The notes beneath the pieces were generated by a model. That model did not search any database and was not told where the DNA came from. It worked only from the letters and a program-made list of their open reading frames with translations. A stretch of 64,000 nt of DNA from Agarophyton chilense (taxonomy: Eukaryota; Rhodophyta; Florideophyceae; Gracilariales; Gracilariaceae), in assembly GCA_030374765.1 (NCBI GenBank), contig JARGXX010000002.1:930001-994000 (forward strand). The letters are read 5' to 3'. This document shows, piece by piece, positions 3,087-50,639 of this stretch (its first letter is position 1; every line of letters starts with the position of its first letter). A program made the position numbers and the translations under genes.

Positions 3087-4737
3087 TTAAGGAGTCGGGT
3101 TATCCGAGTTGATACCCATCGAGGAGCGCAAGAGATTCAGCATCGGTTGTCGCTTTTCTTGAACAAGGTGGGAGGAATCCCAGAGTCTTCGAGGAACTGC
3201 CTCAGATTTCCAAGCTCGGAATCGTGGGAAGCCACTGTGGGTCGAACAGGCTCAGATGCAGGGCTCCGCATCGCTACAGGGACCACTGGCTCCATGCCGT
3301 CGTTCTCACCCAAAGTGAGATCCTCGAGGATGACCTCTTCTAGCTCTTCATCGTAATCGATTTCTTGCATCTCGTCAACGATGGCGTCGGCATTCTGAGC
3401 AGTTGGATCGTGTATGGAACCAGTCGGCTGGGTCGGAGGCATTGCTCGCGGAGTTTCCCGGAGAACTTTGGCGTGATCGCCGTCGATATGCTGGTTAGTC
3501 CAGGGGTCGTATCAGACAAAGCCAGCGCCGGGACCGGGTCTTCCGGGTGAACAGTCGCGACGATGACGTCTTCTACCCTGCTGTTCAGAAGGAAGAAGGG
3601 TACAGTCGATCTGGTCAATGACATCCATCAGACGCAAAACTTCTTCGTGATTGGCACGTGAGCCCAGCACGAGCGACAGATCGAGTTCTCTCGCAAGTTG
3701 TCGAGCAATCGGGCTCTTATACCACAAACGATGTGTGTCGTAAACATCCCAAGGCATGAAAACGGCCATCTTCGCGATGAATTCACTGTAGACGACTACC
3801 CAATAACCGGAAAACGGATCATTCGCGAGTAAGGAACCTACGTAGGTGATTAAAGGACGGAGTTCCACAGGACAGCCACGTGGACTCTCGATCTCATGCC
3901 AGTATTGATGAATTGGAACGTAGCGCCTGACGCGCGAGTTATACCAAATTCGGTCTACTTCGAGCATCTGGTATGGAACCAAGTATCCCAGTCGAGATCT
4001 GGTACGGCGTTCACACCGGGGGAATTCCCAATACGGATTATTCCGATTGCGGAGATAGCGGAATTACGCGCGTAATTGAGGACTGTTGGAACAGAGGGCC
4101 ACGTTCGATACTCCACGAACACCGCGCCACCTTTGGACATCCAAAGCCGTTAGGTTTTCGACATACTTGTAGGCCTCGCCATTTGTTCTGGCACACCAGG
4201 TATCGAATTTCCAATCTTCATTGAGAGGTACCGAGCCGAAAATGCGGCGTAGTCACTGGTACACCAGACGGGGGAATCGTTCGCGCGCCTCGAGCAAGCT
4301 CTCGTTTCCGAAGTGACTGATCGCATTGTTTGGAAGGGCGCAATGGCTCATCTAATCTGTTGTAAACAACGTATGCCATGGGATACCATCGGAAAGGCGA
4401 CCGGCGACCCCATACTGATTCGTCAGAGCTTCGTCGCGGACCGCCGCAGGGAAAAACCAAGGCGCTCGCGCGTATAATGAAGAGGGCTACAGGGGTCTAG
4501 GCCGACGAAGTCCGCGTAATGTGGGAACCTCTGTACGGAGGAGGACGCAGGTTGCAGAACAGCTGCTGTGGAAGAAAGTTATGTAGGACCAGGACCGGAA
4601 GCCGATTGCGGCAAAGGGGCAGTTCGGGAGATTGGAGCGGAACCTCTAGGCGTTGCAGAAGTCTGCTGAATCGGAGGGTTGTCGAGATCGCCATAAGACG
4701 TCGGTGGATTGACCACGTAAGACGGAAGGTTGCTCAT
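3087..4737 (-). pseudogene. Convergent accessory ORF (aORF) of gypsy element A, degraded
   Basis: This is a protein gene of about 550 codons on the strand opposite to pol, lying between pol and the 3' LTR. I do not recognise the family. It starts M-S-N-L-P-S-Y (ATG at 4737) with a Pro/Ser/Thr/Gln-rich N-terminus of about 100 residues. Next come segments matching copies D and E (R-T-N-G-E-A-Y; R-W-R-G-V-R-G-V), then a Trp/Tyr-rich region at 3510-3980 (Y-W-V-V-V-Y-S-E-F; W-D-V-Y-D-T). After L-D-L...L-M-D-V-I-D comes a Y-D-P-W-T-N core, an acidic stretch and D-S-G-I-P-P. The frame is broken by several shifts and by TGA at 3512-3514 where relatives have Trp. The true end matches D and E as S-S-M-G...P-T-P, stop 3087-3089. 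No signal peptide or membrane segment is evident. Confidence 0.6.
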
Positions 4738-5091
4738 CGCGAGATGTCAGATACAAGAAAAGTTTGAAGGATCGAATGGCGAGATGATCGCAAGGTGGAT
4801 TGGGAAAACACAAGGTTGTGATTCGAAAAGAAGAATCAGAATGTCCGAGAAGCGCGCTGCGATTGCTTTTACAGACAATGCGTCGCGGGGGCTCCGCTCT
4901 TAACGGGGGGGATATGTACCATTCTGGATGCACCTGAGTTCGACCGTTCGAAATACTACGAAGTCGCGATACGGCATTCATAAGCTATTTCTTGGGATAT
5001 ACTCGGTTACGAGAAGTTATGAGAAGATTTAATTCATGGAAAGGATTGGACAGGAGAAATTTAATTAGGAAGTACTGTATTTAGTGTACAC
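4738..5091. promoter_or_regulatory. Leader between aORF start and 3' LTR (possible antisense promoter)
   Basis: This segment of about 350 bp separates the aORF start from the inner edge of the 3' LTR. It is recognisably conserved with 40898-41246 (D), 36156-36484 (E) and 35193-35572 (G); for example, all share a block reading CTTATGAATGCC or close to it on the aORF strand. Short frames through it are not consistent between copies, so I read it as non-coding. Its position makes it the likely 5' region of the antisense transcript. No TATA box or other core element is convincing. Confidence 0.4.
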
Positions 5092-5695
5092 TGTAAGGTG
5101 CCATCACAAAATATTTTATTTGGTATTATTTAAATAATGGTTTAGTGGCACTCCACGTGTATGCATTACTGTACAGTACTTGCTTTGCCTCTTGGCACAT
5201 TAAAGGGCGCGAGACCCAGGTGAGGACGGCGAAGGCCAACCAACAACCAACCAACCTAAAGACCTTCTTGGTGAGTGCTAGAAATCCTAAAGTGGTTCAC
5301 CACAAAGGGGCACCTATAGCATCAGTTCTCAACCGTTCTGAGCTATAGATCTTGTTCCGAGGATACCCTCTACTATTGCGCGTTTATTGCCCTTTTTCTA
5401 CAGCTTTCTGTGTGTGTGTGTGTGTGTTGTTTCGTTGTTGTTTTCTCTACTGTTACCTGGTTATTTGTGTTATCACAAAGGTTGTCGAGCCGATATCGTG
5501 TGCATTACATACAGCCGTATCCGGATATCCGCCTCGTAAATAAACGTACTATCCCCATGGTTCAGGCACACCTGGTTGCTTTCCGCACACTCTCTTCTTA
5601 TCTAGTAACCGTCGCTCGCAAGGCGACACCCGCTCTTCGCATTTATTGCTGTGAATACCCACTGCACCGAGACCTCTACAGGCCTGAACACCATA
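5092..5695 (+). mobile_element. 3' LTR of gypsy element A
   Basis: The LTR begins TGTAAGGTGCC and ends near ACACCATA. It aligns over its whole length with the minus-strand LTR at 40290-40897 and more weakly with those at 34610-35192 and 35573-36155. Those copies end in TACCACA or close variants, so the expected end here is a mutated CCACA. A (TG)n run lies at about 5409-5428. The right boundary is uncertain by a few bases because no target-site duplication can be tested. Confidence 0.75.
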
Positions 5696-6260
5696 CTCTT
5701 GGATGGGTTTCCCGAGCGGAGTTTTCATCTCTCACTCCAGACTAATTGATGTGGCCGATGAAATCCACAAGATGGATAAAGTCGGTATGATTCTCACGTT
5801 ATCCCAGGACAAGGGAAAGATCGATACCTCTCACACATCTTTGCGCTGTTGGCGACATGCAGCAAACTCTAAAGCTATCATAAGCTTCCTAAATAAAGAA
5901 AACGGCCGTCTTTGCGATAAACACGGTATAAACTCCCATCCAATATCTTGAGGGCGGGTAGCTTAGAAAATTAGGTCCAATGTAAGAAATCGAAAGTAAG
6001 GGCTCTACGGGGAAATTGGACTTTCTGTCACCGCCAAATGTCCCGGTTTGCCGATGTCACACCCGAAGCGCGAGTTCTGCCGAATGCGACCGATCTAAAT
6101 AATTTGATACGGCACCAAATAGCCCAATCGAGATAGAGTACGATGTTTCCAACGAGGATAATCCCAGTAGAAAATCTAAATCTTGCGTAGGAAGCGGAAA
6201 TCTGGACGGAGATGAGGTTGTTAAAAGTAGAGATCTACGATAGCAGAAGCTGGTATTGTT
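5696..6260 (-). pseudogene. aORF fragment of an older gypsy copy (H)
   Basis: Immediately outside the LTR of element A lies DNA that again resembles the aORF middle region. Read on the minus strand it shows L-V-P-Y-Q, then an N-S-R segment, then a degraded counterpart of the Y-W-V-V-V-Y region, with many stops and shifts. Its order and orientation match the aORF of element A at about 3480-4060. The simplest reading is that A inserted into the aORF of an older element in the same orientation. Too decayed to encode a product. Confidence 0.5.
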
Positions 6261-7782
6261 TCCATGTTAACGGTTATATGCGGCCAGTTCTTGCTCTGAT
6301 GATGACAATCGATGACCAATCGCCGCCTCTCTTCCCCTGAAGAGTTCTGGTACCATACTGTGAAGGCTGAGGAAATCATTAGTCCTCCTATGCCTTGTTC
6401 ATTGCGGAGTCTAGTGTGATCTCGTCGTAAATGTTCTCTTTCAAAACTGTTTCAAAGTTTTTTTCTGCGGATATTTTTTGTCTCGCAACGTCTGTATAAT
6501 TTTTGGAAGCAAAAAATTACTTCCGAATGAGACTGCAGGTAGATCCATGACCCCAACGTAAATGGCTCGTGCCACATAACTTGGCGCCCTGAGATGCCAT
6601 GCTATTTGTCTGCGAGCAACGCAGCCAGTTTTCAAAGCGGACACTCCCGAAAAAACCGCTTCCGAGACTGGGATGTCTAAAGGCCCCATTTCTTGGACGT
6701 GTTTCCTTCCTTCGGCTGCCCATCTTTAGCGATTCTTAACAACTGAGATATCCGGTACATTTCCAACTCTTTCGCTTTCTATATCTCAATACAGCGAGTC
6801 AAAGCTTCTTATGAAGCCCGATAAGACTCTGAAAAGACAAAATCGTGTATTTTCAACGACAAGTGCAAATTGTTTTTCAAAAATTCGATACTTTGTCTCG
6901 ATACTTCACAAAAGTACTGCCCACGAATCGTAACGACTTCTTATGCTACTCAGTAGAATCTCCTGCCAATAACAGCAACTAAAGAAGTTGTTTAGATCTA
7001 GGCTTGACTTTCTTCCCGATTCGTATACATGTGAGCCCAAGTTACAGCCATACGCCGGTGGCGATGATTAATTATCATATTTTAGCAGAACGGTTTTCTC
7101 TATATCTCAACTCGTTACAAAACGAGGTAGCCGGCGGTTTGAAGAAACACAAGTGACTCAGCGTGACGTGTACATCTTGGGTGAACATCGTTTTTTCGTC
7201 ATCAATGTTTTTTATAGCAATCCTCCGCCCGGCAAGACACAAGTCTTTTTCCGTCGGCTTAGCAACCTCTCAAGATTCTTGAAACTGCAAAAAATTCAAA
7301 CCATCTTGTTGAAGGTTCGAAGGTATATTAACATACATGATGCTCGCATTTTGATCGCACGAATTGTGAAGATATCTCTTTTTCGGTTTAAGGGTAGCTT
7401 CTTGAAAGGAAAGGACATGGTAGTGCTGGTGTAAAGTGCTCAGTCTGGTTTAGCCGTACTCGTACTCTTCAAAGCACGCTCTTTAGCCTTAAAAGTTGAT
7501 CGCTGTCCTGTTCGGACAAACTCGCAAATCGTAAATGGATGGTAAAGGAATTTATGGACAAAACCGATGTAATCCAGGGTATCCCGGCCAAAAACCAACC
7601 GCACGACGCGAAAATGATGTCGAGAGAATCGCCACATTTGTCGCTTTGTTAAAAGAAAGCATAGAATACACCAATAATCAGTGTAATGCTCTGAGAACGG
7701 TCGAATGGCACAAATGATAGGACAGTCACGGCGCATTTTCCCATTTAATTAGCTTTATTTGAGGCAAACTACAGCTTTTATG
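6261..7782. other. No gene recognised
   Basis: Only short, unremarkable frames are seen on both strands; the longest, about 93 codons at 7153-7434 on the plus strand, has no motif I recognise. The frames at 7440-7736 may be diverged flanks of the transposase relic to the right. Confidence 0.4.
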
Positions 7783-19971: not shown

Positions 19972-20885
19972 TGTGGAGCAAAACCCGGCGACGGGAAGTG
20001 CTCTCAAGGTGTTCGAAGCCTTGCTCCCTGGGGGAGGCAGACTCAGAGACAGAGCCCTCCGTTCCACCCGTAGTGTGGGGTGTAACTCCCACGGGGGATT
20101 CCGGCAGTACCGACGGAGGTGAGGGGTAGAAACCGTTGGATCGGGAATGGGTATGGGTATCCCAAAGAATGGGGGAAAATCCGGCGAAGAGGAAAAACGG
20201 GGCGAGGGTCGGGCACTAACGGGCACCGGACCCGAGAACCAGAAAAGGGGCGAAACAACAAAAGAAACCCAATACAGGGGCGAAAACCTGTCCTCGAAAG
20301 GAAACACAAAAAGCACGCAACAAGTAAGCAGAACCCCCACGGGGTATCGTGCACGCAGGTCGTCTGAGCGGTCCCAAGGGGGTGGTTGCACGGAACCCAA
20401 ACGTGGGCACTCTCCAAGTGGAGTCGTGTCCCTACGCAGGCGTTGCTAACCAGAGCCCGTTCCGGGTTGTAAGGCCGAAACGATGGCGACGAAGAACCTC
20501 TAAAGGTATCGAAGACCAACCTTGGTTGTCATTTACTCTGAGCTCGGACTGTCAGATCTCGCCTCCCTAAGTAGGGCCCACTAACTAAACTCTACAGTAG
20601 TGCACACCTGCTCAGGGCCATACACGTGGAGATCCCACTGCCAGGGTCCAAAAATCCAACGTTCTAACAAATATCCGAAATTCGGTGCCAAAATTAAGCC
20701 ACGTGTATCACGAGGGCAATCCAACCATGGGCCATCCGAATTTTCCCTTATAGGCGAAATATAACCAGAAAACAGTGCCACCTCAGCACACCATAGAGGG
20801 GATCATAATCATAACCCTCGGAGGGTTCAATCCTCATTCTATGAGTTGCATCTTCAAGTATCCCCTAACTGGGCGTTGCTCTACA
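19972..20885 (-). repeat. 3' LTR of element B
   Basis: 914 bp, matching 29365-30278 along the full length. In element orientation it starts TGTAGAGCAACGCC and ends GGGTTTTGCTCCACA. It lies directly after a purine tract, as a 3' LTR should. Confidence 0.9.
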
Positions 20886-20898: not shown

Positions 20899-20927
20899 AA
20901 GACGAGGAAGAACATTCCGAGCCGCGG

Positions 20928-21863
20928 GTGTCTAACTTTCCGATCACTATACATACTAATCTCCCAATGGGGTCCTTCACCACTTCTGAGGATCGCCACA
21001 AAACCGGCACATCGGTACAACTTTCTTCTACTCCTCCGACTTTCGGCGATACGCAACCTCTCGCAGCAGCGGTTTCGACTAGCCCTCTCAAGGGAATGAA
21101 CCCATACGTGATCAACCCACTCTCGGGGCCATCGGCCTCCGCGCCGGGGGACAACGAAGCTCCCCAGCAGGGTGGAGATTTCTCCGATGCTACGGACCAT
21201 CATGCGTCAGATCGACCTTGTCCCAGCGTTGGGTTCGGCCAGCAACGTGCAGGACCTGTATCCAATCTTGGACGTGATCGACAACACCCAATGGGATCGA
21301 GTTCCAGTGGCAAATCAACCCGCAGGGGAAGGATCCGCGCGAGACAAGTCTCCTGGCCGGTACGATCCGGGCTCCGGTAACTGGGTCTATTACAATCCCT
21401 TCGAAGGGGTTCGCATCAGCGAGGCGCAAGCACGGGCGCTGATTGACTTGCCTCGACCGATGCCGGTGGGACACCCGACGGGGTTCATTTATACCGACGA
21501 TTACGAGTACGAGCCTCCAGTAGACCTGGACGATCCAGCGTTGGATAACGACGTGCCAGCTCCTAGTGGAGTACTCCCTGTGGAGCCATCTGCACCCTTC
21601 CAACCAGTGGGAACGATCTCAGCTGCGGCGGCGAATGCATCCAATGGCGGTCCATCTGCTCCCCCCGGGTGGGGTGTGACACCCTTGCGCATGCGCCGGT
21701 TGCCACTCCGCAAGCGGATAGTGTGCGACAAGGCCTCGTGAACGCAGGCATTCCGATTCCCCCGGGTATGACGGATGTGAGCCAGATGTTGGCTTTCGCC
21801 TCGGCGTACCATCAGGGTCAGAATCCCAACGGTGGGGCGGGTCCCTCCTCGGGCTTTCCGTAG
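20928..21863 (+). pseudogene. Convergent accessory ORF (aORF) of element B, internally deleted
   Basis: The frame starts M-S-N-F-P-I-T at 20928, only 43 bases from the 3' LTR, on the strand opposite to gag-pol. After a Ser/Thr/Pro-rich N-terminus (about 75 residues) the reading moves to the +1 frame near 21170. There Q-I-D-L-V-P-A-L-G-S...L-D-V-I-D parallels the L-D-L-S-L-V-L-G-S...L-M-D-V-I-D of element A. A core N-W-V-Y-Y-N-P-F follows, then an acidic D-D-Y-E-Y-E-P stretch. Near 21665 the frame returns to the first phase and ends with N-A-G-I-P-I-P-P and a Gly/Pro tail, stop at 21863. The Trp-rich middle region of A, E and C is missing. The product is unrecognised. Confidence 0.6.
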
Positions 21864-22571: not shown

Positions 22572-25500
22572 CTATTCCCATTCCATGACGGAGAGCCAAA
22601 TTTGGTCAACCTCGTCGTGGAGATCTTCCCCGTGCGGGTCCGCTGACACAGCTCGTTCCCGAGAAAGCGGGGTTTGAGTGTGCGACATCTCAGTGTCTCT
22701 TCCGCGGCGGCGGGTGATCGTCGGCTCTATAGGCGTTCCGGGTGCGGAGTTCTCCACACGACTCTCCCTAGGCGGGTTTTCGTCATCTTTTCTGACGTCG
22801 TGCTCGGCTGGGTCGGCGGTGATGTCGTTACCCATACGCTGGGGTTGTGACTTCTCTGTCGCCGGCTCGGTCGGGCTCGCCGTCTCACTGTGAGAACTAG
22901 ATTTCCTGTTAGGGAGACTGGCTGACGCCGAAACATCGTCCTGCGAAAGAACTAAGTCCTCCTCCCCCTCCTTAGGCGGAGATCCAGGAGGCTTGACTAC
23001 CTCCGGTGGGGGAGTAACTCTGTAAGAGTTCGTTGGCTGGGCCCTTGAGGGAGCGGGCCCAGGTTCGGGAATATCCGAAGTTTCCGGTAGGTCGGTTAAA
23101 CCACCTTCCGGGTGCGGAAGTATAACGGGGCGGGGGTTCGAATCTCCGCCTGACGGGTTAACTTCCGTTGAATCATCCTTTGTGGAGGGCGTTGGTGCCG
23201 ACACCACTTCCACATTTGGGTTGGGCGCTCGTGTGATGCGGTCCCTGGAGATCCGTTCGTGGCGGTTAGCGATATCCAATACCACCGTGTCCGGGTCTAC
23301 AGAAACCACACGATAGGGTCCGTCTGCAATTGGCGAAAGCTTGTGCCTACGTTCCTTTTCAGGATTGTAGTACTCCTTTCGAAGGAAGACGAAGTCGTCG
23401 GGCTCCACCTGAGGTAGAGGTTTGCGAACCCGATTGTCAAAGTCCTTCTTGTAGGCGCGTTGAGCTTTGTCCATTGCTTTCCGGGCTATCCGCACCATCT
23501 TCGTAAGGCACTCCTTCCAGGCTTCTCGGTACAATCCCGGTGACGGGTACGTCGACAGCGTCGGTTGAGCCTCAATGGCGACCGGCGGCGGTGTCTTCGA
23601 CAGTACCAGTTCGAATGGGGATAACGATGCAACCCGATGTATCTGGGTGTTGTATGCATACGTGATAGCGTCTGTGTACAAGTCCCAATTTTTGGGGTGA
23701 TCCGCAACATACGATCTCAAAGCGTTGAGTATCGTGCGGTTAAACCTCTCCACCTGGCCGTTCCCCTGAGGGTGATACGTAGTAACAAATAAATTCCTTA
23801 CATCAAGGATTCGACATACATCCTGAAAGAACTTTGATGCGAATTGCCCTCCGTTGTCGGATAACAACTGCACCGGCGGTCCATATACGAACACCCAATG
23901 GGACACGAACGCTTGCGCGACGGTAGCGGCGGTGATCCGCTTCAGCGGCACAGTTCTCGTTAGCTTAGAGAATCTGTCGGAAATGACAAGCAGATACCGA
24001 TGACCTCGGGGCGTCCTGATAAACTCCCCTAGGATGTCTATGGCCAGGAATTCGAGTGGAGCCCGTGCCGGGAACAGCGTCAACTTCTTAGAGTGCTTCC
24101 GAAGTTTGACGTCATTCTTGGCGCAATTGGCGCAGGCCCGTCTGACGGCGTAACAATCGAATGCCATTGCCGGCCAGTAAAAGTCCCTTCTCAACGTGAG
24201 GTACAGTTTTCTTCCCCCGGGGTGGGCGCCAACCTTCAAATAGTGAGTGAGGTGTAATACCCTCTGTTGTAGGGTGTGCGGCACCACTATCCTCGGGCGA
24301 GGTCCAACGGTCCTGATTAGGTAACCCTGATCGTCGTCCTCGAAAGGTAACTGAAATCCTCCGTTGAGGCGAGCCCGAATCCGTGTACAGAATGGGTCGA
24401 GCTTTTGCCCGCGTATCATCTCCTCTGGAGAGATAGGTATAAAAGAGCCGGTCGGCGAATCCAGACTCTCGTTGACGAGTATATCGTCACAAACATCATC
24501 CTTCAGCGGTTGAGCTCTTCCCTTGAGGTCCGATACCATAAAGCATGGGATGTCATCGTCCTCGTAGGGTTCCGTTTCCGCTGTGGTTCCCAAGCGGGAT
24601 AGTGCATCAGCCTGAGTGTTCAGCTTCCCTTTCTTGTACAGGATCTCAAAGTCGAATTCCGACAGTCGGAGACGCCAGCGCATAAGGCGGCCCGAGGGTT
24701 CGGAGATCTCCAGGAGCCAACGCAAGCATGCGTGGTCCGTATGGACTTTGAAACGAGTACCCATCAGATAGGGGCGAAGTGTAGCTAAGGCCCACACAAC
24801 GGCTAAACATTCTTTCTCGGAGACCGAGTAGTTCCTTTCATGGACATTCAGGGAACGTGACCAGTACCCAATAGGGTGACGTTCAACATCCTCAGAGGAT
24901 TGGAACAGTGCACACCCTACTTGGTTTGCACTAGCATCGGTGTCCACTTCGTAAGGGAGCCCAGGATTGGGTAGAGCCAAGATTGGCGGTGATGTTACGG
25001 CATTCACCAATGCCGTGAAGGCAGACGCTTCCGCGTCGCCAAAAGGTTCCAGTTCAACTGGTTGTCCCTTCGTCAGGAGCCTGTTGAGGGGGGTGGCAAT
25101 ATCCGCAAAGTTCGGGACGAATCGGCGATACACGTTACACAGACCTAAGAAGGATCGCAACTCCGTTTGAGTTTTCGGGTGTTTTGCTTCCTTCAAGAAT
25201 TTCACTCGTACTTCATCGATTGAAAGCTCTCCGGGACGGATGATATGACCCAGATACTTAACCGAGTCGGTGAAAAACTCGCACTTCTTGAGTTTCAAGG
25301 TGATTCCCGCGTCGCGGAGTATCTTCATTACGTCCCTGACGTGTTCGAGGTGGTCATCCAGGTTGTTGGAGAAGACAATCATGTCGTCTAAATACACTAG
25401 ACACGTCCTCCACTTGAAGGGAGCCAACAGAATGTCTATCGCCCGTTGAAACGTTTCGGGGGCCTTTGTCAACCCAAAACGCATCCTCCGGAATCGGAAA

Positions 25501-29364: not shown

Positions 29365-30278
29365 TGTGGAGCAAAACCCGGCGACGGGAAGTGCTCTCAA
29401 GGTGTTCGAAGCCTTGCTCCCTGGGGGAGGCAGACTCAGAGACAGAGCCCTCCGTTCCACCCGTAGTGTGGGGTGTAACTTCCATGGGGGATTCCGGCAG
29501 TACCGACAGAGGTGAGGGGTAGAAACCGTTGGATCGGGAATGGGTATGGGTATCCCAGAGAATGGGGGAAAATCCGGCGAAGAGGAAAAACGGGGCGAGG
29601 GTCGGGCACTAACAGGCACCGGACCCGAGAACCAGAAAAGGGGCGAAACAACAAAAGAAACCCAATACAGGGGCGAAAACCTGTCCTCGAAAGGAAACAA
29701 AAAAAGCACGCAACAAGTAAGCAGAACCCCCACGGGGTATCGTGCACGCAGGTCGTCTGAGCGGTCCCAAGGGGGTGGTTGCACGGAACCCAAACGTGGG
29801 CACTCTCCAAGTGGAGTCGTGTCCCTACGCAGGCGTTGCTAACCAGAGCCCGTTCCGGGTTGTAAGGCCGAAACGATGGCGACGAAGAACCTCTAAAGGT
29901 ATCGAAGACCAACCTTAGTTGTCATTTACTATGAGCTTCGGACTATCAGATCTCATCTCCCTAAGTAGGGCCCACTAACTAAACTCTACAGTAGTGCACA
30001 CTTGCTCAGGGCCATACACGTGGAGATCCAACTGTCAGGGCCCAAGAGTCCAACTTTCTACAAATATCCGAAAATCGGTGCCAAAATTAAGCCACGTGTA
30101 TCACGGGGCCAATCCAACCATGGGCCATCCGAATTTTCCCTTATAGGCGAAATATAACCAGAAAACAGTGCCTCCTCAGCACACCTTAGAGGGGATCATA
30201 ATCATAACCCTCGGAGGGTTCAATCCTCATTCTATGAGTTGCATCTTCAAGTGTCCCCTGACTGGGCGTTGCTCTACA
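29365..30278 (-). repeat. 5' LTR of element B
   Basis: 914 bp, matching 19972-20885, with TGTAGAG and CTCCACA termini in element orientation. It is bounded on the inside by the primer-binding site. Confidence 0.9.
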
Positions 30279-36484: not shown

Positions 36485-38109
36485 ATGAGCAATCCCCGCT
36501 ATGTGAGGTATCCACGAACGTCTTACGATGACCTGGATGAACCAGCACATCATCACAAAACTACCTCGTTGAGACGTTCCGATCCGGGATCACAAACAGA
36601 GCTTCTGTTGACTTCTTCCTCAGGTTCTAGCCCTTCAGATCTTTCTTCAACAGCAGCCGTTCTGCAACCACCATCGTCTACGATTCAGAATTTCCCGCAC
36701 TATAGGAACCTCGTCGGGCGGAACCCGATGCACCACACTGCGCTTTTTCCTAGTGCTCACTGGTCTTACTCGGTGGCTGTCCGCGACGAAAATCACATTG
36801 GTCAGTACGTAGTCGTTGGTCGACTTCCTGACGGTATTCCGTGATATTTGCTACCCACAAGGGACTGGCTCATACCTTGTGCGATTCTAAACAAAGCGGT
36901 AAGTCGCTTTGGCTCCCAAAGCGTGGCAAAATCCCGCGCAAAGTTCACTCGACTATTGTTCAAGCGGATGCGCAGCGTGATTGGGACCCTTCCCTTAAAA
37001 GAATGTTGGAACTTCTATACCTGGATCTACAGAACGAACGGAGAAGCTTAATCTTATGTCGAGAACCTCATGGATATGAATGTCCAACCGTGGCGCGGCG
37101 TACGCGGAGTATCCAACATGGCTCTCTGTTTTCACAGTTTTCAGATACGAGCAGAGTTTTCCTACCTTCACACGCGCGATAATCTCCATTGGGAACTCCC
37201 TCGATGGGAGAGGCGTACTTGATCACGACTAGAATACTTGGTCTCGTACCAAATGCTGTAGATCAACCAGATTCGGTATAACTCGTTCATCGGGCGCTAC
37301 GTTTCTATCGCCAGTTATTGCCATTTAATAGAGTTCTCGTGGTTTTTCTGTGAATCCCACCCCAGTGATCACCTCCGCAAGTTCCCAACTTTCTAATGAT
37401 CCGTTCTCCGATTGCTGGGTAGTCGTCTACAGGGATTCCATCGTGAAGATGGCCGCTTTTGTTCGATGGGATGTGTATGACACTTATTGTCTGTGGTACA
37501 TGAGCCCAATGGCCCGACAACTTTCAAGACAGCTCGATCTTTTCCTAATATCGGTATCACGGGCAAATCACCAAGAGTTTCCGCACCTGATGAGCTGTCT
37601 CGTCTTTATTATTCCCCTGCAAGAACTGCGCCTGGCGGCCATTTCGTATGGTATGATCAATGGACCAAAGAACACATCGATGGCGATCACGCCAATACCG
37701 TACTGGAAACCAGAGAGAGATTCTTCCTACGCAGCCAACTGGCAGTCAATTTGAGTCTGTGCATCTTAATTCCGACGCACTCGAGGACAAGCTCCAAGAA
37801 ATTGATTGCGATGAAGAGCCTGAAGAGGCGGGCTTCGAAGTCACCGTTCTAACGATAAATGACGGCATTGAGCCGATAACTTTTGCTGAATCACAAACAG
37901 ATGGCTGTGAGTCAACAGCTGAGATTCATAATCCTTCCTACGAAGCCGAAAAGCCGGTGGTGTCGTCGCATAATCCGGAACTCGACAATTTGAGGCGGTT
38001 CTTCGGGTACGCAAGGATTCCTCTCGATTCCAATCAAGGTCACGGGCAGCAGAGTTTGAGTCGCTTGCGCTCCTCGATGGGCAACCACCCCGGAACTCCA
38101 AGCCCGTGA
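36485..38109 (+). pseudogene. aORF of gypsy copy E, nearly full length
   Basis: About 540 codons from M-S-N-P-R-Y-V to the stop at 38107-38109, convergent with the minus-strand pol remains of copy E. One phase carries the Ser-rich N-terminus, V-V-G-R-L-P-D-G-I-P (then TGA where D has Trp), A-V-S-R-F-G and R-T-N-G-E-A (then TAA where D has Tyr). The phase changes near 37350, giving C-W-V-V-V-Y, W-D-V-Y-D-T and R-Q-L-D-L. It changes again for V-W-Y-D-Q-W-T and an I-D-C-D-E-E-P-E-E acidic stretch. The last codons S-S-M-G...P-S-P match A in frame. The stops fall at residues conserved in other copies, so the gene was once intact. Function unknown. Confidence 0.65.
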
Positions 38110-38275: not shown

Positions 38276-38508
38276 ATGAAAATAGATCAGGCCTTCTTGA
38301 GACCTTTGTTTCTTCTTGTCGCTTTAGGGATCACATTAGATCAGGCCTTTCTGAGACCGTCAAACCGACTAGAGCGTCATTAATATTACTGGAAATATCC
38401 ACCTTAGCTCTTCTAGAGTACGATATCCCGTGAGATCGTGGTAAGTGATGTATAGGCTCCTATGTATCATCTGTTATCTGTAGCATGCTATTCATGGCTT
38501 ATGATTCG

Positions 38509-40289
38509 TTAGATAAGGTACTCTTCTCCTCCATTGAGCGACGTTGAGGCCGAGATAGCGCCATTGTGATCAGGTCCTGCCGTACGTACTTCGTGTACAG
38601 CCGAATGAGTGTGCTCCAAGTTCAATTTCTTCCCTGAAGTATCTGATGTCGCGTTACAGATTTCATCAGGTTTGATCACTTCTTGGTGTTTCAGGGCGAG
38701 TCTTCTGGATTCCCGTGATCTATCCAGTTCAGCCGAGGCCTCCAACACAGCGCTCTCTTTATCCGATTCTTTCGGCGATAAAGCGATGTCTCTTCTCGCG
38801 GTACGTCTTTTTTCTGCTCTTGCGGCCATTTATGATTTTACGCTAATAGTAGCGGTGGGCGTGGGGCAAATACCCTGTCGCACGGCATCCTTCGACGAAG
38901 GGTCAGCCGATATAACCTTGTAAGTAAACTGTGGTCTTTCCGCTTTAACTCCATATCCCTCAAGATCAAGATCCCTTTTCTCCTTGTGAGATTCCTTCAC
39001 ATTTCAAGTGATATACGTGTCTTTCCATCGGAGTAGCAGAACCTTTCTGCTGATTTCAGATTTTTCCTTGTGGTGTAATACTATAGGTGTCGTAATAGTT
39101 ACGACCTCAGGTTCTCCTGTTGATGGTTCTACGATGCAAGGTGCGCGACCACCTTCAAATGAAGTTTTTTTCACTGTTTTTTCCGAAGTCATCGGTATTC
39201 TTCACGTTAACGTGACCTGGTGTGGGAGCTGCAGCTCGTTGCGTGCTCACGACGCGTGTGGTCAATTCCGCTCCCCTCTGACCTCCAAGGTCCAAAATCC
39301 TACCCATCGATGCGCTGTGTGGCGGTGCCCCGCTTATTGACGAAATGCGCCGGTTCTCCGGATCGTCCCAGATACGTGGCAATATTTTTGAGATAATTTT
39401 GTTCTTAGGCGCAAGTCCCCAGGCGCCTGTATTGTAGGGCTCCGCGGTTGTGTTTTCACCTCAGTATGCACAAGAGTCAAACCTGTCGGCTGCAAATCAT
39501 CTTCAGGGATCGGCATGACGCCACCTACACCTGAACGTAATGCACTCACCACTCTATCACGTGAAATGCGCTCAACTTCCTTATCTCTTCCGATAAAAAC
39601 CGTGTGCTCGTCGACTTGAACAACTTCATACGGTCCGGTTGCGATTGGAGCTAAATTGTTACGGGGTTTTCGTATTTTTCCTTCTCTGGTTTTTCGATTA
39701 TCCTTGTTTTCTATTCTCACGAAGGCGTGTCCTCGAACTCGGACATCCGGAAGTGTCCGCCATACTGACGCGTCGTAATTGTGTTTGTAGCGTGCTTCGG
39801 TCTTTTCCGGTCTGCGTTGGTTGTGGTTGTGTGGTGCTTTTGCGCAGCTCGTTCCTTTAGCGTAGGTGAAACTGAGCCAGCATCGGCATATCCTCATCTT
39901 CGGTTCTGTCCGGGCGAATCTAGATTGGTAACACTGGTGGGAGGAGTGATAGAACCAGCTCTAATGGCGCTATCTTCGTATTCGAATGAACCTGCGTATC
40001 GCACGCGTAACAAAGCGTGTCCGCATAAAGATCCCGGTTCTTGTGATTTTCAGCGATGTAGTGCCGTAGTGCAGCGAGTAATGTACGATTGTACCATTCC
40101 ACCTGCCCGTTACATTGCGGATAATACGTCGTTGTGAACACGTTCTAAATTCCCAGTATCTTGCATACATCTTTTAAGAAGCGTGCAACGAATTTTTTAC
40201 CATTATCTGAGAGCAGAGTGTCCGGCGGTCCGTAGAAATATACGCAGTGGTGGGTAAACGCTCGTTTTATCACGGCAGCAGTGTTCCGT
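38509..40289 (-). pseudogene. Integrase, tail and chromodomain remnant of copy E
   Basis: Read from the right, the integrase core begins within the R-I-T-A-type segment and keeps Y-F-Y-G-P-P-D-T-L-L-S-D-N-G-K (second catalytic Asp). N-G-Q-V-E-W follows, where the catalytic Glu is present but the next Arg is Trp. The GPY-like region appears at about 39650-39590 (A-T-G-P-Y-E-V-V). The tail is broken by shifts, and the frame ends at 38509 in G-E-E-Y-L-I, the start of the chromodomain. The first part of the integrase is missing because the LTR of copy D sits at 40290. Confidence 0.75.
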
Positions 40290-40897
40290 TGTGGTATTCT
40301 ACTGAAGACTGTAGAGGTCTCGGTGCAGTGGGTATCCACAGAAATAACCGCGAAGAGCGGGTGTCGCCTTGCGAGTGGCGGTTCTTAGATAAGAAGAGAG
40401 CATGTGGAAAGCAACCAGGTATGCCTGAACAATAGGAATATTACGTGTATTCACGAGGCGAATGTCCAGATACAGCGGTACGTAATGCACACGAGATCGG
40501 CTCGACAACCCTTGTGATAACACAAATAACCGTGTAACAGTAGGTAAAACAAGAAAGAAACAACACACACACACACACACACAGAAAGCTGTAGAAGAAG
40601 GGCGGTAAACGCGCAACAGTAGAGGGTCTTCTCGGAACAAGACCTATAGCTCAGAACGGTTAAGAATTGATATTATAGGTGCTTCTTTGTGGTCAACCAC
40701 TTTAGGATTTCTAGGACTCACCAAGATGGTGTTTTGGTTTGTGGCTAGTTGGCCTTTCGCCGTCCTCACCTGGGCCTTGCGCCCTTTAATGTGCCAAGAG
40801 GCAAGGCCAGTACTGTACAGTAATGCATACACGTGTTGTGCTACTACACAAATACCTAAATAATACCAAATAAAATATTTGGTGATGGCACCTTACA
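40290..40897 (-). mobile_element. 3' LTR of gypsy copy D
   Basis: 608 bp with TGTAAGG...TACCACA termini in element orientation, the closest relative of the 3' LTR of element A. It interrupts the integrase of copy E. A CA/TG microsatellite lies at about 40562-40582, matching that in A. Confidence 0.8.
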
Positions 40898-41246: not shown

Positions 41247-41951
41247 CGATAAGCAACTTTTTGTCTCACGTGATCAATTCACCTACGTCCTAGGACGATC
41301 TCGACAACCCTCCGATTCAGCAGACTTCTGCGACGCCTAAAGGTTCCGCTCCAATCTCCCGAATTACCCCTTTGCCGTAATCGGCTTCCAGTCCTAGTCC
41401 TGCATACCTTTCCTCCACAGCAGCTGTTCTGCAACCTGCGTCCTCCTCCATACAGAGGTTGCCGCATTACGCGAACTTTTCCGGCCGAAACCCCTTAAAG
41501 CACTCTGCATTATACGTGCGAGCGTCTTGGTTTTCCCCTGCGGCGGTCCGCGACGAAGCTCTGATGAATCAGTAGATGCTCGCCGGTCGCCTTTCCGATG
41601 GTATCCCATGGCATGCGTTGTTTCCAACAGATTGGCTGAGACATTGCGCCCTTCCAAAAAATGCAATCAGTCGCTTCGGAAACGAGAGCTTTCTCAATGC
41701 GCGCGAACGATTCACCCGTCTGGTGTACCCGCGATTACGCCGCATTATAGGCTCGGTGCCTATCAATGAGGATTGGAAATTCGATACCTTCTCTGCCAGA
41801 ACAAATGGAGAGGCCTACTCGTATGTCGGGAACCTAGCGGCTTTGGATGTCCAAAGGTGGCGCGGTGTTCGTGGAGTATCCATCGTGGCAGCAGATGCTG
41901 AATCTCTTGCACTCCTCGATGGATATGAACTCAGATAAGCCAAATCCCTAA
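41247..41951 (+). pseudogene. aORF of gypsy copy D, start lost and middle deleted
   Basis: The expected start is ATA-AGC-AAC (Met to Ile) at about 41247. The frame then runs in one phase with stops in the N-terminal third. A clean section of 120 codons from 41576 gives G-R-L-S-D-G-I-P-W, F-P-T-D-W-L, I-S-R-F-G, R-F-T-R-L-V, R-T-N-G-E-A-Y and R-W-R-G-V-R-G-V. It then jumps straight to the C-terminal end (S-S-M-D...K-P-N-P, stop 41949-41951), having lost about 1 kb that A and E keep. The preserved part is the best copy of the N-terminal domain in the window. Confidence 0.6.
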
Positions 41952-42007
41952 CTCTCTGGCCTGAGGGCACTGTAACAAACCGACTAGCGGTAATCTTGAG
42001 ATAAAAA

Positions 42008-42244: not shown

Positions 42245-42694
42245 TTTGAAGGAGCAATGATTACGATTGAGCTCTGTAAGCCGCCGGGCCCTGAGGTATC
42301 TTACAGACGACACGTGGACGGGTCGACCTCAGGTGGACTCATGTTGATTATTAATTTATTTTAATATGTGTAATAGATTAGCATTACAATTCCAAAGAGA
42401 TCTCAGCGCCTCGCCAGTACTAGTTACTTGGCTCGAGTGACGCTTCTCCCTTAGAGTAAGGTAGGCCCCGTTCGGATACTAAATAACCCCCTTTGGTATG
42501 TTAGTTCCACCAATTGGTCTTCAAGCCATCCATCGTTTCCGTAGCTCCAACCTGCAAGACTACGCAGTAAACGCCAGCCCATTGTACCAAGTACTCTGGG
42601 AGTGCCGCCGTCAAGGATTCGAACCTTAGGATCCGCTCTACCACGCTACCACCGGTCGAGAACCGTACGCTGACCCACCACACATTGCGTTACA
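42245..42694 (+). repeat. 5' LTR of element C
   Basis: 450 bp, beginning TTTGAAGGAGC (mutated from TGTTAAGG as in the other LTR) and ending GCGTTACA. It aligns with 51076-51519. Near its 3' end the opposite strand resembles a tRNA: GTGGTAGAGCG, then AAGGTTCGAATCCTT. Confidence 0.85.
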
Positions 42695-42697
42695 TTT

Positions 42698-44736: not shown

Positions 44737-45172
44737 CCTTAAGGAAAGAGAATTACAGGGTACGGCGATCCGAAGGAATGTTTAACTCGATACAGCAACG
44801 AGCCACAGGAACCCCTGTAAGCTCACGCCATGCCACGCCTCTGGATACTCCAATCTAAGCCCCACAGGTCGGCGCCATTGTAGATCCTACAGAAGACCCC
44901 GAAGAAGAATCTTATCCTCAGGAAGAAGCAGAAACCCCATCGGAAAACTCTTGGAGGGTCGATGCGAGGCAAATCCTTTCTTTTTAAGCCCCTGCCTCAA
45001 CCAATTGGACGGTCATGGGCCAAAGAGCTCTTCACCTCCCAATAATAACCAACCGGAATGGACCACTTAAGTTGAACCACAATTGGAACACAGTAACGAC
45101 CCTGTCTATATCCTCAGGAAAGAGAATTAAAAAGTTCGAGTAGCCGTAGAAATTCGTTCCAACAACTCTCGA

Positions 45173-48163
45173 GTGACCACAGCCACGTTGGACACAGGCG
45201 CTGGGCCCAACTTGGTCGATCCTAAGCTACTCCAACTGGGTTGGAAAGATTTCTTTCAGGCAAGGAAGACCCTAAGAATTACCGATGCATCACGTAGACA
45301 AATGGACATTAAAGGGATAGTACCACTTTACCTCAAGTTAGGACAATTCAAAGTCCGCAAGTGGTTCGTTATATGTCCTAGCTTGGGCGCTGAGGCATTC
45401 CTAGGGACCTCCTTTATCGATCGATACATCAAGGCCATTTACCCAGGCCTTAGGAAAGTCGCATTCTATCGCGCCCCTTCCATCTCCATAACTTGTTCCG
45501 CCCCAGGGCCAGAAGCTAGCCGCAAACGAGCGGTTGTCTCCGAAAACACGAAGTCCAACAAGGTTCGCCTGTCAAAGGCCATAACGATACCGCCGATGAC
45601 CCGAATCGCTATATCGGTCCATTACCTGTTTTCAGGACTCGTAACAATTCAGAACAACCCGAAAACGGTTCTGAAGCACCTTACCTTGATGGCAAATGGA
45701 GTTATGGACATCCAGCATAACAGGTCGTTTTTGGTCACAATCAGCAACTTCCGAGATATACCCGTGCGGTTACCCAAAGGCACAGCGATGGGTATCACTC
45801 TACCCGCGCCCGTGGCCATTATGGAGGCCGAAATGGATAACCTTGAAACGCCGACTCCTGACGAGGACGTCGACTCTTGGGAGGGGACGGTCGCTATCGG
45901 CGCAGAATTCGAATCCTATATGCCCCAGGTACTTGATCTCCTCAGTGAATACCAGGCCTTGTGGTCAGGTAGATTGGGTATGATCAGAGCCACTACACAC
46001 CACATTGACCTTAACGATGACGCTAGACCACAGTTCCAGCACCCATACCGTATCGGCCTTGAAGGTAGGAAAATTGTCGCCGACCAGATGGAAAAGATGC
46101 GCAAATCTCAAGTCATAGAGCCGGCGCCTCCAAACCAATCGGAATGGGCAAGTCCCCTTGTCCTTCTGGCAAAGAAAGATGGCTCCGTCAGGTTCTGTGT
46201 CGACTACAGGAAGCGTCACGCAGTAACCAAGAGGGACTCATACCCGATACCCCGCATGGACGAGTGTCTGGATTTCTTAGGCGAATCTGTCGCATTTACC
46301 ACACTGGACGCTAACTATGGATACTGGCAAATCCCTTTGGACGAAGATACGAGAGCGCTTACAACCTTTACCACCCATGAAGGTCTGTTCAGATTTACTC
46401 GCATGACCTTTGTTTTGAAGAATGCACCAGCAACTTTCGAAGGAGTGGTGGACATCAAACTGTCCAGAGTCAAATGAAAATTCGCTCTGGTCAATTTGGA
46501 TGACGTCATAATCTTCTCACGGACCGTAAAGGAACACCTTCGCCGCGTGAAGAAGGTGCTAACAATCATACAGGACGCTGGAGTAACATTGAAACTCCGC
46601 AAATGCGCTTTCTTCCAGGCCTCAGTGGACTATCTCGGTCACATTTTCCTTTCAGGAAAGCTAACGGTAGACACACGGACCACAAATTCGATTCGCCAGG
46701 CTCAGCCTCCTAGGACCCACACGGAACTACGATCCTTCGTGGGCTTGTGCAATGCTTACCAACGGTTCGTCCAAGGGTTTGCCAAGATCTCGGCCCCTCT
46801 CAACGCGATTCTGAAGAAGGGAACACCTTCGTAGTTCGGAGTCCTCACCGACGACCAGTACGAGGCATTTCAGACCCTAAAGGAGAAATTGCCGAACCCA
46901 CCTATATTGGCTTTTCCAAAGCCCAATAGGCCCCTTGTCCTGGATACAGATGCCTCTGATACCAAAGTGGGATGTGCACTGCTACAGGAACATGAGTCAC
47001 CGAAGGACTATCGACCTATTGGATATTGGAGCAGATCGTTCACCAGCGCGGAGCGAAACTACAGTACTACCAAAAAGGAATGTCTAGCCATCATATGGTC
47101 CGTATTGACACTCCGTCCGTACCTCGAGGGAACCAGGTTTGCCATTAGGACAGACCACGATTCACTCCGCTGGTTACTCAATATGACCGATGCATCAAGT
47201 CGCCTCGCTAGGTGGCGCCTAAGGCTGTCAGAATATGACTACCAGATAACCTATTGGCCAGGCATCCAGCACCAGGCAGCAGATTCCGTGTTGCGAATCA
47301 TCAACGACGGAACTGATGACACTCCATTGGACGACCTAATTCCTACCCCCTTCACAGATGATGGACCTCAGGGTTATACGGAAACGGATGACCTTGTGGG
47401 TAAGGTCCAATCGGATGATCCTGACCTAAAAGAGAACGAAGTATACCTATTGAACTGGGAGACAGTACCGCCCAATTCGAAACCATCTCAGGTTAATGCG
47501 ATAGTCCTGGAAGAAAAAGAGCTCCTCCCTATAACTGTTGAGTAACTCCTACAGGCGCAGGTCGAAGACAAGTACAACAAGGAAGCAGCCCAATTGGCAG
47601 GAACTCCTAGATGCATATTCGACTATGACCGATTTGGACTACTATGTTGCCGCTCACCGCTGGATGGCGCACTCCAACGGGTAATACTAACTTCGCTGAG
47701 GGCGCGATTCCTATACCTGGCCCATTTCCCTCGCATGGCTAGTCACTCTGGAGGCTGACGAATGTACCAGACCCTTAGAAATTTCTTCCACTTGCCACTA
47801 ATGGCGAAGGACCTGTGGCAAACGGCACGGAACTGTACATCGTCCACAGAAATCCGAGGGTCCTGCGCCAATCATCAGGCCAAATTGAAGCTCTTCTTCG
47901 CCGCAGGTCCGATGGAATTTGTCGCGATGGATATGCTTGGGCCTCTGCCAAAGTCGTCACATGGGAAACGGTTTGTCTTGGTTATAACACATAGGTTTAC
48001 TAAGCTTACCCGAGCCCTACCTTTAGGGAAGACAACAGCAACGGATGTTGCCACGGCCTTCCTGTCCCTCTCGGTATATCCATATGGCATCCCTCTCTAC
48101 CTCCTTACAGATAACGCAGCTAGTTTGTATCCAAATCTTTCTCACACGATTGTGCAACCTTAG
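45173..48163 (+). pseudogene. Element C pol: protease, RT, RNase H, integrase N-half
   Basis: One phase with five stops (46475, 46832, 47543, 47758, 48161). The protease signature T-L-D-T-G-A-G-P-N is at the very start. The RT keeps V-D-Y-R-K and T-L-D-A-N-Y-G-Y-W, but the Y-L-D-D motif reads N-L-D-D (46496 region), so the Tyr is lost. RNase H shows L-D-T-D-A-S, K-K-E-C-L-A and R-T-D-H-D-S-L-R-W. The integrase zinc finger (47.70-47.86 kb) is incomplete. The first catalytic Asp (V-A-M-D-M-L-G) and the second (L-T-D-N-A) are present. Confidence 0.8.
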
Positions 48164-48174
48164 ATATCAAACAT

Positions 48175-49161
48175 GTGACCACTTCGGCGTACCACTCGCA
48201 AACCAATGGGAAAGCCGAATGCTTTAACCGCACCCTTCTGGATCGATTGGCGCACTACGTATCGAAACACCAATTGGACTGCGACAACTACGTTGGGCCA
48301 CTGGTTTACGCCTACAATGCGCAGGTGCACGCTTCCACAACACCTTTCGACTTAACGCTAACAAGAGCGCCGCCGCCGATAGCTGTGGACGTTCAGGAGT
48401 CTATCATACCCCAGGACATAACCGAAGGAATGAAACCTACCCAGGTGAAGCGCTATTCGCTCCGAAGCCTCGACAGCATTATACAATCGGCGAGAACTAT
48501 ACTGACCAAAGCCCAACGGCGTTACAATGTCAATTTCGACAAAGCCGTTTGGAACACACCGACCTTTGGGAAAGGAGAACTTGTTTTCCTGGACCGGCCA
48601 CCGAGGGACAGTGAGGACCTCTACGATACTACGCGGAAGCTCTTACCCCGCTTTAAGGGACCATACAAAGTTCTTAAGGCCAATGAACACACCATCACGT
48701 TTCTCCTTGGCGGCCTACAGGACACCGTGTCTATTGACGGCGTGACACAAGCACCCAGTTTCTCCGGAACACCAAAGTCCCAGCACCCTGGCCCAACGGA
48801 AGCACTAGGACCTCAGGTTGACGCTCAACTCTCCAAACCCCCTCAGGCAGTTCTAGGGGACTCGAATAGCCCCATAGACACGATGGTTAGTGCCAACTAC
48901 TATGACCCATCGCTCCCAACCGACTCCGATGGATTCGCCCTTTTGGACAACACTCTCCTGCCGGAGAATGAATACAAACCGGAATATGTGATTGAGAGCA
49001 TCATCTCCGCCGGTCGGGGAGAAGATGGAATTATGCGCTATCGCGTCCGTTCGTTCGACTGAACACCTGAGGAAGACACTTGGCAAGAGCCTCAAACCAT
49101 TCCGGCTAATTTATCGCCCGCTATTAGCGGAAGCGCTCGGAACACCAACAAGGCTCACTAA
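48175..49161 (+). pseudogene. Element C pol: integrase C-half and chromodomain
   Basis: This continues in a new phase. It opens with V-T-T-S-A-Y-H-S-Q-T-N-G-K-A-E-C-F-N-R-T, which supplies the catalytic Glu, then a basic region with K-G-P-Y-K-V (GPY-like), then a polar tail. The end is a chromodomain: Y-V-I-E-S-I-I-S-A-G, Y-R-V-R-S-F, UGA at 49060-49062 and T-P-E-E-D-T-W-Q-E in the same phase, stop at 49159-49161. It ends only about 98 bases from the stop of the convergent aORF. Confidence 0.8.
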
Positions 49162-49259
49162 GGCGGCGCAGGAGCAACTCTGTAGTCCTCATTGGAACCT
49201 GCAGGAGCGAAACCGAGACTGGGGTCACCCGATGAGCGAACTGAACCACTAGGACCGGC

Positions 49260-50639
49260 CTAAGCCAGCCGAGCACGCTGCTTCGGCGGAGATTCACCTG
49301 AGGAATTATTGCCACCATCAAACGCCTCCGGGTCACTTAAATTTAGACCATACCAGGCATCCGAGTCGGCAGTAACCCTCTGGGACATCACTTTAGCATT
49401 TTGCTGCATGATATTGACCATGGCAGTCTTCAGGTCCTGACCCTGTTGAACAACCGCGGCGTAGCGCGCCGAGCAACGCGCCCAGGAGCAAGCTTCCCTC
49501 AGGACAGTTGCAATGTCCATCAAGGCCGTAATACCAACGGTACGGCAGACATAACGGATATCCGAAGCCACAGCCGTGACCGAAGCAGAAAAATATGGTA
49601 ACGGAGAGGACGAAGCGATGTCGATGCCCCCAGTGGACGCTTGAGTCAGTGCATCACCTACAGGACTTCCGTCCTCGACAGAATCCTCGCCAGGAGAGAT
49701 GTCCACCTGGGCGACGGGCGGCTCATAAGAAAGCTCGTTCTGAAGAGCAGCGCCCGGAGGAGCTGGAGGAAAGGAAGCAGTCGGCAACATCACAGCGGAC
49801 TCGACCGGAGAATTAACGCTCTCTACGGGCAGGACGAAGGGATCTTCACCGAAGGATTCTCCATCGTACATACCAGCAGGAATCAACGGCGTGGCTCCCA
49901 CATCAGGCTCGAAGCACAGGGGATCGAACCCAATGGCCTTCGGATAATAGTCGGCCACATGCCTCGGGATGTCCGATGGTTGATTCCTCAAATGCTTGGC
50001 GGGATAGGCACGATTGTCCTCCCAACTCGGCGGATGTAGCGGATTCGGCCTGAATGAGTTGGTACCATGGTCATACCAAAGGAACCTGGGAGTCTTGCCC
50101 CAATCCACCTGTAGGAAACGATCCAAAAGCTTGGTCTCGTCGATGTCGAACTGGGTCCCACGGACGATATTCTGGATGCCCAGGTTCCTTAAGAAACGGA
50201 TCATGATATCCGGGAGCGGGACTAGGCGACCTCGAGGACCGGGTATGTTCTCTTCCTACCGTACCCTCCAATTCTCTGAACGGACATTACCACAGATTCC
50301 GTTCTTCGAGGTATCCAGGAAGGCCATAAAGGACATCACGCCAAACTCAACGAAGAGTACCTGCCAAGACTTCCACGACCTTTGGAAATCTTCCGCAAAG
50401 GACGGAAGAATGTAATGACACACTCCCCGCGGATTTCCTCCGATGGTATGGTCATAGCGGTCCCCGTGACGTTCGTAAGCCACTTGGTATACCGAAGAGC
50501 TCCCCGCTTGGTTGTTCGAAGACATGTTACCGCTGCCCACGGATTGGTCCGCGGGGAAATGGATGGGTAAGCCAACGGAGGCAACATAGTCCGAAGGAAA
50601 AACGGCGTATCCGACGGTCTTATAAGGCGAGTTCGGCAT
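49260..50639 (-). pseudogene. Convergent accessory ORF (aORF) of element C
   Basis: 459 codons in one phase from M-P-N-S-P-Y-K (ATG 50639), interrupted once by UAG at 50256-50258. This is the least damaged aORF in the window. The middle region W-Q-V-L-F-V-E-F...F-M-A-F parallels Y-W-V-V-V-Y-S-E-F...M-A-V-F of element A. The core D-I-D-E-T-K-L-L-D-R-F then P-R-F-L-W-Y-D-H-G-T-N matches the W-Y-D-P-W-T-N of A and the Y-Y-N-P-F of B. An F-E-P-D-V patch follows, as in B. The last 170 residues are Ala/Pro/Ser-rich, then helical (V-Q-Q-G-Q-D-L-K-T-A-M), with a basic end. It has no signal peptide and no known domain that I recognise. Confidence 0.65.

Follow-up and report, generated by a model that had tools for sequence, protein, structure and literature searches.

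A candidate antisense accessory gene family shared by diverged gypsy-type LTR retrotransposons of red algae

Antisense reading frames lying between pol and the 3' LTR are described over several families of plant gypsy elements, including maize Grande (gene23), rice RIRE2 and Silene Retand (TRP28/PF04195); the function of the gene23/TRP28 proteins is given there as unknown, with a nuclear or regulatory role proposed (PMC11963269, PMC7264820). Also described are brtn, an antisense extra gene of the gypsy-type element Boty of Botrytis (PMC7264820, PMC8365987), and HBZ, an antisense gene of the retrovirus HTLV-1 with a nuclear location (PMC11963269), and an antisense promoter is placed in the 3' LTR of HTLV (PMC7264820).

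The window analysed here, a stretch of DNA of 64,000 nucleotides, contains gypsy-type elements with a comparable frame, termed acc. Like the plant frames, acc is antisense, lies between pol and the 3' LTR and is conserved across several families. It differs from TRP28, which contains PF04195 (Transposase_28), in that this family was absent from the matches reported for 15 A3 and 6 A2 members with E up to 10, in a search whose HMMER filters drop very weak matches. Also, the Retand elements, from flowering plants, are not chromoviruses, whereas the acc elements belong to red algae and carry a chromodomain in family A-I. The likeness to brtn, whose host is a fungus, is one of antisense extra gene and by description only. 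HBZ is a short leucine-zipper protein, whereas acc is large and gives no match to a leucine-zipper-type domain. acc is best read as a new case among the antisense accessory ORFs of gypsy elements, the layout itself being already known in plants and fungi. A search of open-licence papers, covered mostly by their listing, returned no report of antisense genes in LTR elements of red algae. With acc, such a gene is seen in a lineage distant from flowering plants: it is old and selected, survives unbroken in some copies, and shows no likeness to plant TRP28 that could be detected.

The first-pass annotation had placed the frame at six sites, and all six were recovered on the strands it had assigned by tblastn with acc proteins from elsewhere. 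In element A (family A-I), acc occupies 3066..4737 on the minus strand (72-79% identity to an unbroken genomic copy by tblastn, and translations), with its start codon at 4735-4737 (-), and is interrupted by several stops and frameshifts, including five in-frame stops over residues 81-527. The 3' part of pol of this element (integrase region and tail) lies at 146..2778 (+), its integrase core match (E 1.6e-4) being below Pfam's cut-off. The 3' LTR spans 4915..5681 (+), as placed by string position, sequence and the A-E alignment, whose end at 5681 is taken as the outer edge; a G-rich tract ends just before it, at 4914. The broken acc fragment D follows at 5658..6439 (-) and is nearer the second A family, A-II, than A-I (tblastn 48-65% and 43-49%, respectively); no pol was seen for it. 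Element H contains a broken acc at 36485..38109 (+) (translations; tblastn 43-58% to A-I, match 36485-38106), convergent with a pol remnant at 38473..40291 (-) found by tblastn. In element E, also of family A-I, acc is located at 41247..41972 (+) by tblastn (match 41249-41972), with residues 212-530 deleted, and is separated by the nested element B from its pol at 51509..53781 (-) (blastn 88.9% to A, tblastn 79%).

Element B is bounded by a 5' LTR at 42249..42693 (+), 87% to 51080-51518, and a 3' LTR at 51076..51518 (+), 436 bp from the acc start. Its pol frames, at 45131..49062 (+), give an RT match in 45131-46477 and an integrase end in 48124-49062, with matches below Pfam's cut-off. The acc of B, at 49260..50639 (-), was delimited by tblastn over 49302-50396 and by translation for the first ~87 codons, to 50639; it has one in-frame stop and lacks ~590 bp present in other copies. 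Element C extends from a 3' LTR at 19972..20885 (-) to a 5' LTR at 29365..30278 (-), which are 97% to each other, and has frames over 22572..29182 (-), consisting of a pol (22572-25784) with RT, RNase H and integrase matches and no chromodomain match, a frame at 25785-26915, and a frame at 27107-29182, without a Pfam match, which is labelled putative gag from where it lies and from a CCHC pattern noticed on inspection. The acc remnant of C, at 20928..21863 (+) (translation, tblastn, and hhalign of C against the A family at 99.5%), consists of an N-terminal piece (GTG at 20928), 42 bp from the inner edge of the 3' LTR, followed, with no core, by the C-terminal third (21178-21860). An LTR adjoins the acc start in A, B and C, and in A, B, C, E and H acc is opposite in strand to pol (tblastn), as had been noted. 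The open frame of 460-550 codons that had been described occurs in none of the window copies, all of which are broken or lack part of the gene.

Profile comparisons show a single homologous protein family in A, B and C. hhalign joined A and C at 99.5% (E 1e-22, score 162; best of 100 column shuffles 28) and A and B at 94.8% (E 5e-8, score 68; best of 100 column shuffles 29), and since both scores exceed every shuffle (100 each), a chance origin of these similarities is excluded; a B profile run in reverse, however, reached 30.6 and so exceeded all of the shuffles. A profile of 20 sequences gave the A-B link once more (91.7%, E 8e-7), and BLASTP gave it for A-II and two relatives (E 2e-4 to 3e-3, 21-23% identity); A-I and B gave no BLASTP match at E up to 1, and the link depends on profiles. 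C and B, at 0.9% in the profile comparison, show no direct match and are linked only via A. Of the three families first proposed, the homology of A, B and C therefore stands, and the number gives way to about five acc lineages in the window, namely A together with E, then H (43-58% to A-I), D (closer to A-II), C and B.

The genome searched (79.8 Mb, 135 contigs) yielded 79 acc rows; for 33 of them a pol match was listed no more than 4 kb away, and for 46 none was listed nearby. All 33 (31 A-I, 2 A-II) are convergent with pol; two are pieces beside one pol, giving 32 elements. As in the class of additional antisense ORFs named aORF-3R, acc runs against gag-pol in the interval from pol to the 3' LTR, and it occurs in many copies and more than one species, with orientation known from the host genome only and the core lost in C. 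Unbroken copies are present elsewhere in the genome, and none lies in the window. Relatives of up to 658 residues occur in Agarophyton chilense, in Gracilariopsis chorda and in records of environmental origin. Scans of viral contigs and of prokaryote genome contigs gave 25 and 15 pattern matches, respectively, none of them confirmed as a relative. The Agarophyton chilense relatives may come from the host itself, in which case this is not an independent species. Also, acc-like proteins may sit in annotations as host 'hypothetical proteins', such as BWQ96_08668 of Gracilariopsis chorda.

The best explanation as a whole, with a probability of roughly 0.55, is that one group of red-algal gypsy-type LTR retrotransposons has acc as a true gene, which has descended together with pol from a time before the families diverged. 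Antisense transcription from a promoter within or beside the 3' LTR would produce an acc mRNA overlapping the end of the genomic RNA, and the protein would enter the nucleus, bind DNA or chromatin and regulate the transcription, silencing or integration of its own element, by analogy with the proposals for plant gene23/TRP28 and with HBZ in HTLV-1. That acc is such a nuclear regulator is quite possible. The A-I pol chromodomain ties this group of elements to chromatin and is counted in favour. It was found in the A-I copy scanned (E 4e-11), another B copy has a chromodomain-like pol C-terminus (23 bits, cut-off 25.1) and the C copy scanned gave no match; a pattern scan returned 3/8 A-I, 15/30 B and 1/30 C loci, in part because of neighbouring elements. 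More tentatively, acc may be an undescribed family, its fold unlike any among solved structures, that is expressed antisense from the 3' LTR and acts on chromatin to control the element. If so, together with TRP28, brtn and HBZ, antisense regulators at one position would have arisen independently several times in LTR elements, hinting that the position itself favours their origin. acc bears on what antisense accessory genes do for LTR retrotransposons, and its unbroken copies, with the core-less C elements as a natural contrast, make it a testable family.

The predicted layout of acc comprises a disordered N-terminus, a core of ~380 residues, an acidic linker and, in most members, a C-terminal helix-loop-helix. 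In the structural model (pLDDT 80, pTM 0.78) the conserved core is globular, without known relatives, and mostly helical, with conserved Trp and charged residues. Searches with acc against Pfam, solved-structure sequences, Foldseek (PDB and viral models) and VIA-align returned nothing significant, in agreement with the earlier impressions of a protein without a recognisable domain, perhaps undescribed; the Foldseek comparison that had been suggested left the core model without a match. Weak E3_binding matches (best E 0.029) fall inside core helices and are not believed. In the full-length model, two C-terminal helices surround an 11-residue loop, and a pattern written after the tails were seen fits 13/13 of the proteins given; P0012, P0015 and P0016, outside these 13, have no such tail in the alignment. 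The tail is similar in pattern to the Ish1 motif, with sub-threshold matches in two proteins (E 0.056 and 0.092; 14.2 and 13.5 bits, cut-off 26.6), and presumably also resembles SAP/LEM-type helix-loop-helix motifs.

A large protein with a globular, mostly helical core and conserved Trp and charged residues could also be structural, such as an additional capsid-like or particle-associated component encoded on the antisense strand. We consider such a packaging role unlikely: the core matches no solved chain, capsid or otherwise, a frame labelled gag by its position is already present in element C, and C was amplified without the core. C had been taken for a merely shortened copy, yet all 40 scored C matches (among 585 first-look candidates) lack the core and span the same core-less stretch. 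The M-(S/P)-N start thought to be shared by all families does not extend to C, where it is V-S-N, with GTG in 20/20 copies in which the string was found (30 copies). Since C elements amplified without the core, an element does not strictly require acc in cis; as C keeps just the last third, the protein may be supplied in trans or dispensed with.

A selected antisense RNA, forming dsRNA for or against silencing, with the reading frame incidental or secondary, is improbable. The transcripts would overlap, C keeps the region and not the core, and the idea was raised for plant elements by Vicient and Casacuberta (PMC7264820). Selection between A-II and A-I, however, acts on amino acids: dN/dS is 0.18-0.22 (kappa 1) or 0.30-0.33 (kappa 2) in 4/4 pairs, all sharing one A-I copy and rough as a ratio, with dS near saturation (pS 0.64-0.72), and differences per codon position are about 0.36/0.30/0.62, third positions being the most variable. 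The same frame is also kept in other records and species. Within A-II, dN/dS is 0.77-1.15 (6 pairs); the near-one outcome on which the earlier proposal might have foundered thus appears within a family and not between the two, and shows insertions decaying after transposition. Among B variants, N/S is lower in shared variants (307/190) than in singletons (601/227; Fisher p 5e-5). A-I (24/19 against 273/132, p 0.13) and A-II (27/15 against 257/105, p 0.38) differ in the same direction without reaching significance, and C gives no sign of constraint (18/4 against 109/44, p 0.44). The low between-family and near-neutral within-family ratios imply that the protein was under selection while the elements were active. 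acc is almost certainly a selected protein, as first suggested, in line also with the homology, the unbroken copies and the foreign relatives.

LTR elements recombine and capture genes, and the similarity among families might have arisen by recent recombination or by separate capture of one host gene. Identities to A for acc and pol are 75/79% in E, 43-58/32-50% in H, 32/46-50% in C and 21-23/31-32% in B; these are pairwise values, without trees, the acc values being measured from an unbroken A-I copy or, for B, from A-II and two relatives. As acc and pol identity fall in the same order (E, H, C, B), recent recombination is not favoured, and the common descent proposed earlier is upheld. No precomputed Pfam domain is recorded for the relatives listed, which likewise speaks against capture, and this origin is very unlikely.

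acc lies in the place of env in retroviruses, between pol and the 3' LTR, and an envelope-like protein for cell-to-cell spread was tried as a candidate. Such a protein, expected in sense orientation with a signal peptide and a membrane helix, is barely tenable here: acc is antisense to pol, has a little-hydrophobic N-terminus and, on a rough check, no strong membrane segment, the best 19-residue mean hydropathy being 0.91-1.63 in 11/11 proteins. Two of these values, 1.60 and 1.63, come up to the level commonly used to call membrane helices.

Finally, the opposite strand as the true coding strand can be practically dismissed: among four unbroken A-II copies checked, the frame facing acc stays open over 271 codons in three and over 226 in the fourth, but it reaches only 153 codons in A-I, and its first codon positions pair with the most variable, third positions of acc, so that it behaves as a shadow of the acc frame.

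The accessory protein (acc) that red-algal gypsy elements encode antisense to gag-pol, between pol and the 3' LTR, is real, selected and undescribed, and the selection on a shared protein that the first-pass annotation had suggested is supported by between-family dN/dS values of 0.18-0.33 and by profile homology of A with both C and B. The six antisense places claimed in the window were each matched, on the strands indicated, by acc proteins taken from elsewhere: A (3066-4737, minus), the fragment D (5658-6439, minus), C (20928-21863, plus), H (36485-38109, plus), E (41247-41972, plus) and B (49260-50639, minus). Pol was seen on the other strand in A, B, C, E and H; the long reading frames described there are not intact, 0 of 6 being unbroken. 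Element B (42249-51518, LTRs at 42249-42693 and 51080-51518) is nested within E (40309-53781), between E acc and E pol, with parts of E on either side. Two host-type genes lie between elements, both on the minus strand, encoding an RSN1-type calcium-dependent channel (12667-15138) and a FAD-binding monooxygenase-like protein (16451-18226).

A profile of 15 A-type sequences aligned over 199 columns with the C remnant (99.5%) and over 181 columns with the B proteins (94.8%), and a larger profile (20 sequences) matched B at 91.7%. Column-shuffled controls (100 per target) reached at best 28 (C) and 29 (B) versus real values of 162 and 68, and the reversed profile gave 17.0 and 30.6, respectively. 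Direct BLASTP linked A to C (best E 7e-20) and gave a hint of A-B similarity for the second A family (A-II) and two relatives (E 2e-4 to 3e-3); A-I, the family of A and E, had no BLASTP match to B at E up to 1. A direct profile comparison of C with B gave no match. Identity to A declines in the same order for acc and pol (E, H, C, B), a parallel in pairwise identity that fits inheritance with pol rather than recent exchange.

Relatives of acc, compared as proteins, occur in Agarophyton chilense, perhaps the host species itself (A-type and B-type), in Gracilariopsis chorda (one hypothetical protein) and in environmental records (33-58% identity, 220-658 residues, fragments among them); a scan of viral contigs and prokaryote genomes confirmed none. 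The gene recurs across the genome: at least 42 DNA matches, counted as pieces, were obtained with A, 72 with B and 40 with C, each search having scored 40 out of 315, 634 and 585 first-look candidates, respectively. Protein search added A-II (~51% identical); 7 of 79 rows in the A-type search were stop-free, one being a fragment. One A-I copy is open across 558 codons, as are 4 of 10 fetched A-II copies (chosen for few stops) over 560 codons, and stop-free frames of 698 and 749 codons occur among the B rows. Another acc search gave stop-free frames of 651-681 codons in 8/83 rows, at least seven of which look, from coordinates alone, like one more acc family (G000:C22:1088159, C115:1600499, C135:1381197, C3:1155391, C1:52582, C99:209907, C26:89827 and perhaps C7:562096). 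Of 79 acc rows, 33 (31 A-I and 2 A-II, two of the rows lying beside the same pol) have a pol listed no more than 4 kb away, and all 33 are convergent with it; the other 46 have no listed match.

A dN/dS near one across copies, named beforehand as evidence against selection, is found within A-II, where six pairs of unbroken copies gave 0.77-1.01 (kappa 1) or 0.87-1.15 (kappa 2); A-II versus A-I lies far below (0.18-0.22 and 0.30-0.33, four pairs sharing one A-I copy). Since synonymous sites are near saturation, the sturdier sign is the contrast among codon positions 1, 2 and 3, with A-II/A-I differences of about 0.36, 0.30 and 0.62. After removal of near-duplicates (1/8 A-I, 0/10 A-II, 2/30 B, 1/30 C), N/S was lower in variants common to several copies than in singletons for B (p 5e-5) and, not significantly, for A-I and A-II; C ran in the opposite direction, also not significantly. 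Constrained during spread and near neutral after insertion, acc behaves as a working gene of an element would. Several A-II copies (loci L069-L074) keep a long shadow frame of 271 codons on the strand facing acc, and codon-position variation speaks against its being coding.

Among the matches listed for A-type and B-type members, no Pfam family scored above cut-off, and no solved chain matched acc significantly by sequence. Modelled at full length, acc gives a mixed result (pLDDT 64, pTM 0.58; residues 1-81 and 462-522 under 50), while the model of the globular core alone (379 residues) is good and chiefly helical (pLDDT 80, pTM 0.78). Searches with the core model gave nothing in the PDB up to E 10, no VIA match among 8 chains and no viral model under E 2.1, which is no proof of a new fold. 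A variable acidic stretch follows the core (the richest 40 residues include 9-17 acidic ones in 10/10 proteins examined), and the tail is modelled as two helices around a loop. A tail pattern composed after inspection of the tails fits 13/13 proteins, C and B included, P0012, P0015 and P0016, in which the alignment shows no such tail, having been left out; likeness of the tail to Ish1 is below threshold. Published work (PMC11963269, PMC7264820) places antisense TRP28 ORFs in 97% of Retand clusters and proposes a regulatory role. Antisense ORFs of this kind are an already known class; the literature searched contained no report of the acc family or of red-algal carriers. The function proposed for acc is a reasoned guess.

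The core is absent from C: 40/40 scored matches, with identities of 96-100%, cover one and the same stretch lacking it. C acc keeps an N-terminal piece starting with GTG rather than ATG (20/20 copies where the string could be located, among 30) and the final 225 codons, with a frame of precisely this length open in 20/30 copies. Such core-less elements suggest that acc can be lost or borrowed. The C pol in the window had no chromodomain match. The LTRs of this C copy are 97% identical, so it is fairly young. The distance from acc to the LTR is 177 bp in A and 436 bp in B; in C, 42 bp separate the start of the acc piece from the edge of the LTR, and a purine tract (pol strand) lies between them. 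From this layout, any acc transcript in C would have to begin in or very near the LTR. A C LTR piece at 19704-19971 is inverted relative to the C 3' LTR (20618-20885; 99% identity), making the LTR end locally palindromic.
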